Assembly: GCA_020881835.1 (NCBI GenBank)
Contig: CP052876.1
Span: 1-64,000 of the forward strand
Length of the DNA: 64,000 nt
Direction of reading: 5' to 3'
Origin: Kineosporiaceae bacterium SCSIO 59966
GTDB lineage: Bacteria; Actinomycetota; Actinomycetes; Actinomycetales; SCSIO-59966
The translations under genes and the position numbers were made by a program. Positions 23,689 to 30,793 of this stretch are shown here, in pieces (the first letter of the stretch is position 1; each line of letters starts with the position of its first letter). The notes below the pieces were generated by a model. The model was not told where the DNA came from. It did no database searches and saw only the letters and a list, made by a program, of their open reading frames with translations.

Positions 23689-25251
23689 ATGGCGGACACG
23701 GACAGGGACGACGTGGGGAGCCGGCGGCTGCTCCGGCTGGTGTGGGCGCTGCTCGTCGCGGTCGCCAGCGTGCTGGGGCTCGGCGCCACCGGGGTCTGGG
23801 CCCAGGTGGACGAGCGGAACCGAGGTCCCGGTCTGGCCCACCCGGCGACGTGGCTGGGCAGCCACGGCACGTTCGGCGGTGACCCGTGGGCGTGGTGCGT
23901 CGACGCAGGCCGGGCCGCCCCCGAGCCGGGCTTCACCTGGACCGGCCGGCCGCTCGAGGCGCCCCGCACCAGCTACCTGCTGACCCGGTACGCGGCCCAG
24001 GAGACCGACGAGGTCCACGCCGCGCTCGCCTACCTCGTGCACACCTCCGCGGAGCTGCCGCACGACCCCCGCACGCGGGTACCGTCCGAGCCGCCGACCC
24101 TGCACGGGGTGGACCTGGGCCCCACGGTGCGCGCCCTGGCCGCGGAGGCGGCCGCAGCCGCGGGGCCCTACGACCTCCAGGTGTCCCTCGACGTCGACCC
24201 GCAGGCCCGGTCTGCGACGGCCCGGGTGCTGCTGGCCAGCGCCTCCGGCGCCCCGGTCGCCGGGTGGCCGGTCGACGTGACCGTCACGGGCCCGGCCGAA
24301 CCGGCCGGGGACGGCGGGGACGCTGGGGGCACCGAGGAGCCGCGGGTGTCCGCAACTCGCCCGCTCGAGGTGCCTCTGCGCCTCACCGGGGACGGCACGG
24401 TCACCGTGGCGGCGAAGGCCACGGTGCCGGCCGGCACGGTCACGCTGCACACCGCCGACCGGGCCGGCGTGCAGCGCGTGGTCACCCCGGTGCCACCGGT
24501 CCCGGTGACCGGGCAGGCCACCGCGGACGTGCTGCTGCCGTTCGCGCCGTCCGTGGTGACCCGCACCTCCGCGGAGCGCGTCACGGCCGGGACGCCGGTC
24601 ACCGACCACCTCGAGGTCGGCCTCGTCGAGGGGACGTGGCCCGACGGCCACGCCGTGGTCGTCACCTCGACGCTGTGGGGACCGTTCCCCGAGGCCCCGG
24701 CACCGGCACCGGAGGCACCCCCGGGCGCACCGGCAGTGGGCACGGTGGAGACCGTGGTGACCGGCCCGGGCAGGTACGAGACCCCGCCGCTCACGCCGGA
24801 GCACCCGGGCTGGTACGTCTGGACCGAGCGGGTGCCCGCTGACGAGCGGCAGCCCGGGTGGGCCGGCCGGTTCGGGCTGGCCGCCGAGACGACGCTCGTC
24901 GAGGCGCCCGCGCCACCGGAGCCGACCGTGCCCCCGGTGCCGGAGGGCGCACCGCCGCCGAGCCCGGCACCTCCCGAGGCCACGGCACCGCCGCAGGTGC
25001 CCGCACCGCCGGAGGCGTCAGCCCCACCGGAGGTGTCAGCCCCACCGGAGGCGACGGTTCCCCCGGCCGTGCCCGAGCTGCCGCGCACCGGCGGTGTCGC
25101 GGTGGTCCCGGCCATCGCCGGCGCAGCCCTCGTCGGGCTCGGGATCAGCGCCCTGGCCGCAGCAGGTGCCGGTAGGCCAGCCCCGCCCCGGCGTACCAGA
25201 GGGCGATACCGGCGTACAACCAGCGGGCGTACCCGTCGTCCGGGACGATGA
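23689..25251 (+). CDS. LPXTG-anchored surface protein
   Basis: 520-residue secreted protein. The N-terminus is a signal/anchor (RLLRLVWALLVAVASVLGLG, about 13-33). A Cys-containing N-terminal domain (PWAWCVDAGR... to AALAYLVHTS) loosely resembles adhesin thioester domains. Middle domains look like beta-rich repeats (VTVTGPAEPAG, VTRTSAERVTAGTPVTDHLEV). Near the end a Pro/Ala/Glu-rich spacer with repeated APPEAS/APPEVS/APPEAT units leads to the sorting signal LPRTGG, a hydrophobic helix and an Arg-rich tail. No sortase gene is in the window. The last 107 bp overlap the end of the convergent MFS gene. Confidence 0.75.
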   Translation: MADTDRDDVGSRRLLRLVWALLVAVASVLGLGATGVWAQVDERNRGPGLAHPATWLGSHGTFGGDPWAWCVDAGRAAPEPGFTWTGRPLEAPRTSYLLTRYAAQETDEVHAALAYLVHTSAELPHDPRTRVPSEPPTLHGVDLGPTVRALAAEAAAAAGPYDLQVSLDVDPQARSATARVLLASASGAPVAGWPVDVTVTGPAEPAGDGGDAGGTEEPRVSATRPLEVPLRLTGDGTVTVAAKATVPAGTVTLHTADRAGVQRVVTPVPPVPVTGQATADVLLPFAPSVVTRTSAERVTAGTPVTDHLEVGLVEGTWPDGHAVVVTSTLWGPFPEAPAPAPEAPPGAPAVGTVETVVTGPGRYETPPLTPEHPGWYVWTERVPADERQPGWAGRFGLAAETTLVEAPAPPEPTVPPVPEGAPPPSPAPPEATAPPQVPAPPEASAPPEVSAPPEATVPPAVPELPRTGGVAVVPAIAGAALVGLGISALAAAGAGRPAPPRRTRGRYRRTTSGRTRRPGR

Positions 25252-26531: not shown

Positions 26532-27611
26532 TCAGCGGTCCACCTCGCCGCGGATGAACTGCTCGACCTTGGTGCGGGCGACGTCGTCCGCGTGCTGCTC
26601 CGGCGGGGACTTCATGAAGTACGACGACGCGGACAGCAGCGGGCCGCCGATCTCGCGGTCCAGGGCGATCTTGGCGCACCGCACCGCATCGATGATCACG
26701 CCGGCGGAGTTCGGGGAGTCCCAGACCTCGAGCTTGTACTCCAGGTTGAGCGGCACGTCGCCGAACGCCCGGCCCTCGAGCCGCACGTACGCCCACTTGC
26801 GGTCGTCCAGCCACTCGACGTAGTCCGACGGGCCGATGTGCACGTTGCGCCGGCCCATGTCGTGCTGGACGTTGCTCGTCACGGCCTGCGTCTTGCTGAT
26901 CTTCTTGGACTCCAGCCGCTCCCGCTCGAGCATGTTCTTGAAGTCCATGTTGCCGCCGACGTTGAGCTGGTAGGTCCGGTCGAGCACGACGCCGCGGTCC
27001 TCGAACAGCTTCGCCAGCACCCGGTGGGTGATGGTGGCGCCGACCTGGCTCTTGATGTCGTCGCCGACGATCGGCAGCCCGGCGTCGGTGAACTTCTTCG
27101 CCCACTCGGGGGTGCCGGCGATGAACACCGGCAGGGCGTTGACGAACGCCACACCGGCGTCGATGGCGCACTGGGCGTAGAACTTCGCCGCGTCCTCCGA
27201 GCCCACCGGCAGGTAGCAGACGAGCACGTCGGCCTCGGCGTCCCGGAGGGCCTGGACGACGTCGACGGGGTCGGCGTCGGACTCCTCGATCGTCTCCCGG
27301 TAGTAGCGACCCAGACCGTCGAGGGTGGGCCCGCGCTGGACGGTCACCCCGAGCGGCGGGACGTCCGCGATCGTGATCGTGTTGTTCTCGCTGGCCAGGA
27401 TGGCCTCGGAGAGGTCGAAGCCGACCTTCTTGGCGTCGACGTCGAAGGCGGCCACGAACTGCACGTCCCGGACGTGGTAGTCCCCCAGCTGCACGTGCAT
27501 GAGGCCCGGCACCGTGCCGGCCGGGTCGGCGTCGCGGTAGTAGTGGACGCCCTGGACGAGCGAGGCGGCGCAGTTGCCGACCCCCGCGAGGGCGACGCGG
27601 ACGGAACCCAT
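26532..27611 (-). CDS. ino1: Inositol-3-phosphate synthase
   Basis: 359-residue NAD-dependent synthase that turns glucose 6-phosphate into inositol 3-phosphate, the precursor of phosphatidylinositol and mycothiol. The NAD site is [20 protein letters not shown]; catalytic-core segments include [31 protein letters not shown] and [13 protein letters not shown]. The length matches the short bacterial form. It follows padR by 13 bp in the same direction and was probably co-transcribed with it, matching Rv0046c-Rv0047c. Confidence 0.96.
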
Positions 27612-27624
27612 TCGGTTGCTCCTT

Positions 27625-28242
27625 CTAGTTGTCGTCGTGGCCTGCCGACGGCCGGCCTCGGGTGCTGGCCGAGCCGTCGGACCGACCGAGTCGTTCGTCC
27701 TCGATGAGGGTGTCCAGCCAGCGGACCTCCCGCTCCACGGACTCCAGGCCGTGGCGCTGCAGCTCGAGGGTGTACGAGTCGAGCCGCTCCCAGGTGCGCG
27801 CCATCGACTGGCGGACGCCGTCCAGACGCTCCTGCAGCCGGCTGCGCCGCCCCTCGAGGATGCGCAGCCGGGTCTCGGCGTCGGTCCGGCCGAAGAACGC
27901 GAAACGGACGTCGAACTGCTCGTCCTCCCACGCCGTCGGGCCGACCTCGCCGAGCAGGGCCTGGAAGTGCTCCTTGCCCTCAGCGGTGAGCTGGTAGACG
28001 ATGCGGCCCCGCTTGCCTGACAACGGGTGCGGGAGCGCGGCGTCCGCGGTGGCGGTGCTGGACTCCGCGATCCAGCCGTTCGCGAGCAGCTCCTTGAGGC
28101 AGGGGTACAGGGTGCCGTAGGAGAACGCGCGGAACGAGCCGAGCATGGAGTTCAGCCGCTTGCGCAGCTCGTAGCCGTGCATCGGGGACTCGTGCAGCAG
28201 GCCGAGGACGGCGAGCGTCATGACGCTGCTGCGACGGCTCAC
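27625..28242 (-). CDS. PadR-family transcriptional regulator
   Basis: 205-residue PadR regulator with an N-terminal winged helix (about 5-90) that includes [21 protein letters not shown] and [18 protein letters not shown], and a C-terminal coiled-coil dimerisation region (about 115-195) rich in Arg, Leu and Glu. GTG 28242 fits a GAAGGGGG ribosome-binding site. It lies just upstream of ino1. An array of 13-bp repeats with a PadR-type palindrome 54 bp upstream suggests autoregulation, and perhaps control of the divergent PBP gene. Confidence 0.88.
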
Positions 28243-28295
28243 CTGGCACGCCCCCTTCTCGACTGGCCGGCCGGCGGTGTCACGGGCACGGTGGT

Positions 28296-28373
28296 GATGT
28301 ACCGGCTCGACGTCCCGGCACGATGTACCGGCCCGATGTACCGGCTCGATGTATCGGTTCGATACATCGGAAC
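28296..28373. repeat. Six tandem 13-bp repeats between padR and the PBP gene
   Basis: Units start at 28296, 28309, 28322, 28335, 28348 and 28361. The consensus is GATGTACCGGCTC: units 1 and 4 match it exactly, unit 3 differs at one base, unit 2 at three, and units 5-6 drift towards TATCGG and ACATCGG, creating an inverted repeat. The array is contiguous, with no spacers. It lies in the divergent promoter region and resembles iterons or a multi-site operator. Confidence 0.85.
28349..28367. promoter_or_regulatory. PadR-type operator palindrome
   Basis: ATGTATC-N5-GATACAT is a perfect inverted repeat with 7-bp arms formed by units 5 and 6 of the 13-bp array. PadR proteins are known to bind ATGT/ACAT-type inverted repeats, so this is the likely high-affinity site for the adjacent padR product. 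Confidence 0.65.
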
Positions 28374-28534
28374 GATAGGCGGGGGCCGGGGTGTTGGCAA
28401 ACCGGGAACCGGCCCGTCGGTTCGGCGTCACCGCCGGTACACCGCGTGGCTACCGGCGGGGGGCACCGGCCGATCTCGTCCATACTTGACCGGGCTGCCC
28501 GCAGGCAGCGTCCCGTAGACCTGGAAGAGAGACC

Positions 28535-30793
28535 GTGGCACGTCCAGACCAGCCTCGTCCCGCCGGTAACCGGTCGGCCCCCGCCGGACGCCGCGAGCGC
28601 CCGGGCAACCGCGGACGCCGCTGGGCCGCGGTGCTCGGGGGACTCGTCCTGCTCGGCGTCGTCCTGGCCGGGGGGCTGTTCGCCGTCGGCTACGCGGCCA
28701 CCGACATCCCGGACCCCAACGAGCTCGTCGACGCCCAGACGACGACGGTCTACTACAGCGACGGCGAGTCGGTGATGGGCGAGTTCGCCGCCCAGGACCG
28801 CACGATCCTGGCTCCCGAGGAGATCCCCGAGCACGTCAAGCAGGCCGTGATCGCCGCCGAGGACCGCACCTTCTACGAGAACCGCGGGATCTCCCTGACC
28901 GGTATCGCGCGGGCCTTCTGGAACAACCTGCGCGGCAACTCCACCCAGGGCGGGTCGACGATCACCCAGCAGTACGTGAAGAACTACTACCTGGAGTCCG
29001 ACCGCACCCTCACCCGCAAGATCCAAGAGGCGTTCATCGCCATCAAGATCGACCAGCAGCTCGACAAGGAGCAGATCCTCGCCGACTACCTCAACACGAT
29101 CTACTTCGGGCGCGGCGCGTACGGGATCCAGTCCGCCGCCCAGGCCTACTTCGGCAAGGACGCCGGGGAGCTGACCGTGAACGAGGCCGCCCTGCTCGCC
29201 GGGATCATCCCGGCCCCGAGCCGGTGGGACCCGGCCGAGAACCCCGAGCGGGCGCAGGAGCGTTACGAGTACGTGCTGTCCGGGATGGCCGACCTCGGGT
29301 ACGTCGACGAGACCGCGGCGTCCCAGCCGATGCCCGAGACGATCGCCTACGAGCCGACCGACCGGCTGGCCGGGCCGACCGGCTACCTGCTCACCGGCGT
29401 CCGGGACGAGGTGCTGGCCCGTACCGCGTTCACCGAGAACGACCTCGACCGCGGCGGCCTGTCCATCGTCACCACCATCGACAAGGACGCCCAGGAGGCC
29501 GCGGTGGCGGCCGTCCAGGACCCGGAGAACCTGCCGGTCGAGGGCCGCCCGGAGACGCTGCAGGCCGCGCTGGTGTCCATCGACCCGGCATCCGGGGCGG
29601 TGCGCGCGATGTACGGCGGTGAGGACTACCTCACCCGCCAGCGCAACGCCGTGACCCAGGACATCGCCCAGGCCGGGTCGACGTTCAAGCCGTTCACCCT
29701 GGTCGCCGCCCTCGAGCAGGGCATCTCCCTGCGCACCGAGCTGCCCGGATACAGCCCGATGGAGTTCCCCGACTTCTACGTCGACGAGTCCGGCGAGCCG
29801 GTACCGGTGAACAACTTCGACAACGCCCAGTACGGCGAGATCGACCTGGTCCGGGCGACCCAGAACTCCGTCAACACCGTCTACGTCGGTCTCAACGAGA
29901 TGGTGGGGCCGGACGCGACGGCCGACGTCGCCGTCCGCGCCGGCATCCCGCAGGACGCGGTCACCCCGCCCACCCCCTCGAACGTGCTGGGCAGCCCGTC
30001 GGTGACCCCGATGGCCATGGGCGAGGCCTACGCGACGTTCGCCGCCCAGGGCGTCCACCACGAGCCGTACCTCGTCGAGCGGATCGACCAGGACGGCTCG
30101 ACGGTCTACGCCGCGGACATCGAGGAGCGGAGGGTCATCGCCGAGGACGTCATGGCCGACACCACGTACGCGCTGCAGGCCGTCGTCGAGGCCGGCTCCG
30201 GCCGCGCCGCCAGCGCCCTAGGCCGCCCGGCCGCCGGCAAGACCGGCACCTCCAACGACAGCCGGTCGGCCTGGTTCGCCGGCTTCGTGCCCCAGCTCGC
30301 CACCGTCGTCGGCATCTACAACGTCGGGCCGAACGGGGAGCAGCTGGAGATCCCGCCGTTCGGTGGGCGGCGCTCCATCACCGGCGGCTCGTTCCCGGCG
30401 CAGATCTGGACGGCGTACATGAGCTCGGCGCTCGAGGGCGTCGAGGTCGTCGACTTCCCGCCCCGAGGGGACGTCGGGGAGGTCCCGCGCGAGCAGGTCA
30501 CGCCGACCCCGACGCCGACGACCACCACGACCACCCCGACCCCGACGACGACCACGACGACGACCACCCCGACGCCGACGACGACCACGACGACGACCAC
30601 GCCGACCCCGACCCCGACCACGAGCACACCGAGCCCGACGACCACGCCGCCGCCGCCGGAGGGCGACCGGCGCCGGTTGTGCGAGATCGACCCCACGCTG
30701 CCGTTCTGCCCCGACCCGGAGCCCACCGGCGGGGACGTCGGGGACGCGGGGGACGGCGTCGGGGAGCAGCCGCCGGTCGAGCCGGGCGCCTGA
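28535..30793 (+). CDS. ponA: Class A penicillin-binding protein (PonA1-like)
   Basis: 752-residue bifunctional peptidoglycan synthase. There is a short cytoplasmic tail, a transmembrane helix (about 31-53), a GT51 glycosyltransferase with AAEDRTFYENRG (catalytic Glu109) and STQGGSTITQQYVKN, then a transpeptidase with STFK at 382-385, SVN in TQNSVNTVY and KTGT at 569-572. The C-terminal external tail has a Thr/Pro repeat followed by RRLCEIDPTLPFCPDPEP, a possible disulfide loop. The gene corresponds to Rv0050 in position. GTG 28535 follows GGAAGAGAG. It may be controlled by the PadR array upstream. Confidence 0.95.
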   Translation: MARPDQPRPAGNRSAPAGRRERPGNRGRRWAAVLGGLVLLGVVLAGGLFAVGYAATDIPDPNELVDAQTTTVYYSDGESVMGEFAAQDRTILAPEEIPEHVKQAVIAAEDRTFYENRGISLTGIARAFWNNLRGNSTQGGSTITQQYVKNYYLESDRTLTRKIQEAFIAIKIDQQLDKEQILADYLNTIYFGRGAYGIQSAAQAYFGKDAGELTVNEAALLAGIIPAPSRWDPAENPERAQERYEYVLSGMADLGYVDETAASQPMPETIAYEPTDRLAGPTGYLLTGVRDEVLARTAFTENDLDRGGLSIVTTIDKDAQEAAVAAVQDPENLPVEGRPETLQAALVSIDPASGAVRAMYGGEDYLTRQRNAVTQDIAQAGSTFKPFTLVAALEQGISLRTELPGYSPMEFPDFYVDESGEPVPVNNFDNAQYGEIDLVRATQNSVNTVYVGLNEMVGPDATADVAVRAGIPQDAVTPPTPSNVLGSPSVTPMAMGEAYATFAAQGVHHEPYLVERIDQDGSTVYAADIEERRVIAEDVMADTTYALQAVVEAGSGRAASALGRPAAGKTGTSNDSRSAWFAGFVPQLATVVGIYNVGPNGEQLEIPPFGGRRSITGGSFPAQIWTAYMSSALEGVEVVDFPPRGDVGEVPREQVTPTPTPTTTTTTPTPTTTTTTTTPTPTTTTTTTTPTPTPTTSTPSPTTTPPPPEGDRRRLCEIDPTLPFCPDPEPTGGDVGDAGDGVGEQPPVEPGA

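Follow-up and report, generated by a model that had tools for sequence, protein, structure and literature searches.

Members of the PadR family form winged-helix dimers and recognise inverted repeats with ATGT and ACAT at their ends (PMC3506622, PMC5428041). In the known operators, those of LmrR at lmrCD of Lactococcus and of bcPadR1, the repeat has the form ATGT-N8..10-ACAT (PMC3506622, PMC5428041), and LmrR places two dimers on one consensus site (PMC5428041). In mycobacteria a PadR-like regulator is co-transcribed with ino1 (Rv0047c-Rv0046c), a gene that feeds phosphatidylinositol lipids and mycothiol; this regulator is uncharacterised and is suspected of controlling ino1 (PMC3899939). The same study examined the binding site of IpsA, a regulator of the LacI type, which in M. 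tuberculosis lies within the Rv0047c reading frame (PMC3899939). The open literature, to which our search was confined, gave no account of an ino1-adjacent PadR operator or of tandem half-sites for a PadR protein.

Outside the PadR family, the met boxes of MetJ and the heptads of the omega repressor are operators in which variable numbers of quasi-symmetric boxes, kept in a fixed register, are bound cooperatively. MetJ and omega are ribbon-helix-helix proteins, and their boxes are 8 or 7 bp long.

A 13-bp repeat array at the padR-ino1 promoter

The window, by which we mean the whole stretch of 64,000 nucleotides that was analysed, comes from a complete 3.1-Mb actinomycete genome. The array and its neighbours are as follows.

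26532-27611, minus strand: ino1, inositol-3-phosphate synthase (TIGR03450 mycothiol_INO1, E 6e-212)
27625-28242, minus strand: padR (PF03551, E 8.7e-16), candidate array-binding regulator
28242, minus strand: GTG start of padR, with the ribosome-binding site AAGGGGG at 28251-28257
28296-28373: unit sequences in the order 1 to 6, GATGTACCGGCTC, GACGTCCCGGCAC, GATGTACCGGCCC, GATGTACCGGCTC, GATGTATCGGTTC, GATACATCGGAAC
28296-28373: half-sites read along the padR strand, starting at the promoter and moving away from it, GATGTATC, GATACATC, GGTACATC, GGTACATC, GGGACGTC, GGTACATC
28296-28308: unit 1, outermost half-site, 7/8 to GATRYATC
28309-28321: unit 2, degenerate half-site, 5/8 to GATRYATC
28322-28334: unit 3, fourth half-site; overlapping operator with unit 4, 2 mismatches
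28335-28347: unit 4, third half-site; overlapping operator with unit 5, 1 mismatch
28347-28369: core operator (units 5-6), perfect palindrome CGATGTATCG-GTT-CGATACATCG, putative PadR operator
28372-28400, minus strand: predicted padR-ino1 promoter, -35 TTGCCA, 17 bp, -10 TATCGT
28481-28486, plus strand: likely -10 of the PBP gene, CATACT, outside the array and 107 bp beyond it
28535-30793, plus strand: class A PBP gene, divergent from padR

The six contiguous 13-bp units that a first-pass annotation had read at 28296-28373 were confirmed by rereading the sequence, by Tandem Repeats Finder (period 13, 5.2 copies, score 94 at 28296-28363) and by dinucleotide shuffling. At a lag of 13, identity within the 292-bp gap between padR and the PBP gene is found at 53 of 65 positions, whereas 1000 dinucleotide shuffles of the gap, with the maximum taken across lags 6-30, reach 38 at most. 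The perfect palindrome that had been described, ATGTATC-N5-GATACAT, is exact within units 5-6, and its arms are longer than had been stated, at 10 bp each. Unit 2 is clearly degenerate. It had also been proposed that the array is phased. In the sense of a 10.5-bp helical repeat this is wrong: 13 bp make about 1.24 helical turns, and two neighbouring units therefore point to different faces of the DNA.

Within the gap the array sits closer to padR, 53 bp from the likely padR start codon and 161 bp from the PBP start. ino1 follows padR on the same strand after 13 bp and is likely the output gene of the operon; the order padR then ino1 was found in every orthologous locus with enough flanking sequence. 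Because the promoter-like pair ends three bases ahead of the palindrome, the padR transcript is predicted to start in the core operator's left arm, which would leave most of the array in the leader. The same layout, TTGNNN / TAnnnT directly ahead of the palindrome, is found in the orthologues. A coding role for the array was considered and rejected: the padR frame contains no stop as far back as 28431, yet in the orthologues the distance from operator to start codon varies from 31 to 230 bp in non-codon steps, and we therefore take the array as non-coding.

The nearest solved structure to PadR is 8jxk (E 1.5e-52), which we believe to be Rv0047c. The padR-ino1 locus resembles Rv0047c-Rv0046c in its operon, and mycobacteria-like genomes whose PadR is 50-53% identical carry a degenerate form of the core operator upstream; the locus differs in that no PadR operator is described for Rv0047c-Rv0046c (PMC3899939). 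As in the operators of LmrR and bcPadR1, whose type of regulator is known for autoregulation, an inverted repeat ending in ATGT and ACAT lies next to a gene for a PadR-domain protein (PF03551), here at the gene's own promoter and directly after the predicted -10 (28347-28369). Unlike those operators, it has an extended GATRYATCG arm, tandem half-sites in register and the spacing ATGT-N11-ACAT. The 11 bp, found both here and in the consensus of the orthologues, fall outside the 8-10 bp of the known sites and are a variant, since 8-10 bp is usual and not strictly defining. With the MetJ and omega operators the array family shares short quasi-symmetric boxes in an exact register and variable number. 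PadR, however, is a winged-helix dimer and not a ribbon-helix-helix protein, and the step is 13 bp; at most, the array would work like those operators without being a member of their class.

Conservation of the core operator and of the 13-bp register

To place the array among its relatives we compared padR orthologues taken both from related genomes and from a set of named ones (Cellulomonas, Actinomadura, Actinocorallia, Pedococcus and others). Upstream of padR, just past a -10-like hexamer, the orthologous loci carry the operator consensus GATRYATCG-NNN-CGATRYATC, which is matched at 19 or more of 21 positions in 146 of 151 loci and at 17-18 of 21 in the remainder, most loci reaching 20-21. 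Besides the source genome, 25 of 59 related genomes contain the operator, and in 24 of the 25 it adjoins a padR orthologue. Presence of padR (E <= 1e-40) and of the operator are associated in these 59 genomes (Fisher p 2.5e-8, uncorrected for relatedness). The recognition-helix region of PadR, SYG(T/S)LYP, is nearly invariant among the orthologues, as expected from one conserved operator. Comparison thus supports the palindrome as the operator of padR. In the source genome, with up to 3 mismatches allowed, the operator occurs at the array locus only, as overlapping matches with 0, 1 and 2 mismatches. A wider PadR regulon was looked for in the same scan and rejected, no further site being present at that threshold, and PadR is predicted to act there on its own operon alone.

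The half-site GATRYATC is quasi-symmetric, its degenerate pattern being identical on both strands; depending on the genome it appears as GATGTATC/GATACATC, as GATATATC or in the fully symmetric form GATGCATC. The two arms of the palindrome begin 13 bp apart. Since this offset equals the repeat unit, array and palindrome are one object, and every extra 13-bp unit supplies a new half-site in register. Other loci show the same step. Outside the palindrome, the best half-site offsets lie one 13-bp step past each arm, with means of 3.78 and 3.72 of 8 against a background of 2.31 (s.d. 0.23) averaged over diverse loci. Among 110 loci that were not selected by pattern, 52 continue directly from the core with one or more half-sites (6 of 8 or better) at step 13, compared with 0-5 at steps 9-12 and 14-19, although the upstream counts are partly promoter signal, the upstream unit coinciding with the -10 hexamer. 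Downstream extensions alone, which the hexamer does not affect, number 42 at step 13, about 30 of them in related Thermomonosporaceae, versus 0-4 at other steps.

The number of half-sites in orthologous loci ranges from 2 to 7, always at step 13; one genome (group g59) has GTTCTATC, GATGTATC, GATACATC, GACACATC, GACACATC, GATACATG in 13-bp steps. The core stands without extension in 58 of 149 distinct loci, and the extension is therefore dispensable for PadR regulation in general. On the PadR tree the core-only state requires 19 changes, at least 14 of these changes being forced by well-supported branches. From these comparisons, half-site number changed many times and the register stayed. In Thermomonosporaceae and close relatives (29 loci), the information content is 1.95 and 1.58 bits per position in half-sites 3 and 4, as against 0.58 in the spacers and 0.49 in the next unit beyond. 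Because the half-sites have been kept and the spacers lost, which neutral slippage would not bring about, the alignments indicate that the extra half-sites are under selection in the Thermomonosporaceae/Actinomadura lineage.

In an independent scan across the class, three tandem half-sites occur at 13-bp spacing in 101 of 395 genomes and at 14-bp spacing, which served as the control, in 8 of 395. Of the 13-bp loci, 30 were examined and every one adjoins padR; of the eight 14-bp loci, not one is next to it.

The 14-bp-stepped GATRYATC sites of these few genomes belong to a different system (locus L178, about 1500-1560; L183, about 1495-1535; L181 and L182 similar), and in two that were examined a small MarR-like regulator adjoins them. 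This protein (MNGVELFLLGRxLMKIGE...) is 61% identical between L178 and L183, and its gene is divergent from one for a transporter-like or hydrolase-like protein. The 14-bp loci look like a second, unrelated tandem-site operator. In Cellulomonas (L063, L047, L056, L061, L076) the 13-bp register continues upstream across the -10 (CATACT) and reaches the -35/-10 spacer, and from its sequence the -10 seems to double as part of a half-site.

Alternative readings of the array

The first-pass annotation had suggested that PadR, bound to the array, links ino1 to the divergent PBP gene. A shared operator coordinating the two would suit the divergent gap, and a PBP gene does lie upstream in many loci; we nevertheless consider it improbable. 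The longest regular arrays, those of Actinomadura, are not next to a PBP gene, which lies 1-2 kb off or was not found in the flank, and in several other orthologous loci none was found within about 1.5 kb. The core is always close to the padR promoter, and the PBP gene has a likely -10 of its own, 107 bp past the array. This CATACT element is present upstream of 41 among the 151 loci, versus 1 after shuffling, and, judged by this conservation, is likely a shared promoter element of this actinomycete PBP. Joint control of padR and the PBP gene is not supported, given the distance or absence of the PBP gene in these flanks and its separate CATACT, although PadR may still act at a distance. The proposal of a multi-site PadR operator fared better, the palindrome being kept at padR orthologues with hardly any occurrence elsewhere, and 13-bp half-sites recurring in many lineages. 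Free variation of the array among strains had been named as evidence against it; copy number does vary between orthologous loci, but register and half-site sequence are constant.

A somewhat stronger competitor, though still an unlikely one, holds that the core palindrome alone is the PadR operator and that units 1-4 of the source genome are a functionless duplication by slippage. Units 1, 3 and 4 are near identical across all 13 positions, spacer included, which also fits recent slippage, and they have drifted from the half-site consensus, each with an A-to-G change at half-site position 2; many orthologues, moreover, have the core alone. Because of this change, and because unit 2 matches at only five of eight positions, the outer units of the source genome may be weakly bound or left unbound. 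Slippage does not explain, however, why half-sites beyond the core turn up again and again, at exactly 13 bp, across many unrelated lineages whose spacers differ, or why close relatives elsewhere show strong selection on the half-sites and none on the spacers. Still less probable is that the array acts as RNA, with leader repeats or a 5' hairpin controlling translation or stability of padR-ino1. The predicted start at the edge of the palindrome would put most of the array in the leader, and the palindrome can form a hairpin, but in Cellulomonas and others the register extends upstream to the untranscribed -35/-10 spacer, and the operator-to-start distance is free to vary. Rfam gives a single match in the region, a weak one that falls far under the gathering score and lies inside the PBP gene. 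That the units are iterons of a replication or partition system, as the label "iteron-like" might imply, we regard as extremely improbable. They are short direct repeats in tandem, yet they sit at a chromosomal padR-ino1 promoter and the array follows padR in other genomes; among the neighbouring genes examined (padR, ino1, PBP, MFS transporter, GT87) there is none for replication or partition, and the label is unsupported in that sense.

A model for PadR at the array

We think it probable, on comparative grounds, that the array serves PadR as an autoregulatory operator with several sites, placed in front of padR-ino1 and growing in half-site steps. A PadR dimer would sit on the core palindrome (units 5-6), overlapping the -10 and start region, and would thereby block transcription of padR and ino1. 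Each 13-bp unit added would contribute one more half-site in register, and units 4 to 1 could serve as weaker auxiliary half-sites that load further dimers, three at most on six half-sites. The auxiliary dimers might strengthen or sharpen repression from the transcribed leader. Two steps amount to 26 bp, or about 2.5 turns, which would place successive dimers on roughly opposite faces of the DNA and avoid clashes. Cooperative binding is plausible. Direct binding of PadR, repression, cooperativity and the role of the degenerate units of the source genome are what we infer from the comparison of loci. More tentatively, and with rather less confidence than we place in the autoregulatory operator, the PadRs of this operon could form a continuous chain of dimers on modular half-sites stepped by 13 bp. 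Such an operator could gain or lose single half-sites, and actinomycetes would tune their supply of inositol and mycothiol through the half-site number. If this is true, these PadR proteins would occupy DNA in a way that is new for their family.

What the comparison newly supplies is an operator consensus for an ino1-adjacent PadR, modular and with a half-site number that evolved repeatedly. The natural series of 2 to 7 half-sites makes cooperativity measurable, and the control of inositol supply in actinomycetes becomes directly testable.

Two further observations concern proteins encoded near the array. The C-terminus of the PBP (about 30450-30700, plus strand) is a low-complexity threonine/proline tract with PTPTTTTTT repeats. 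A proline-rich protein encoded at 23689-25251 (plus strand), which has no Pfam match, ends in LPRTG and a hydrophobic tail and, by this motif, is probably sortase-anchored.
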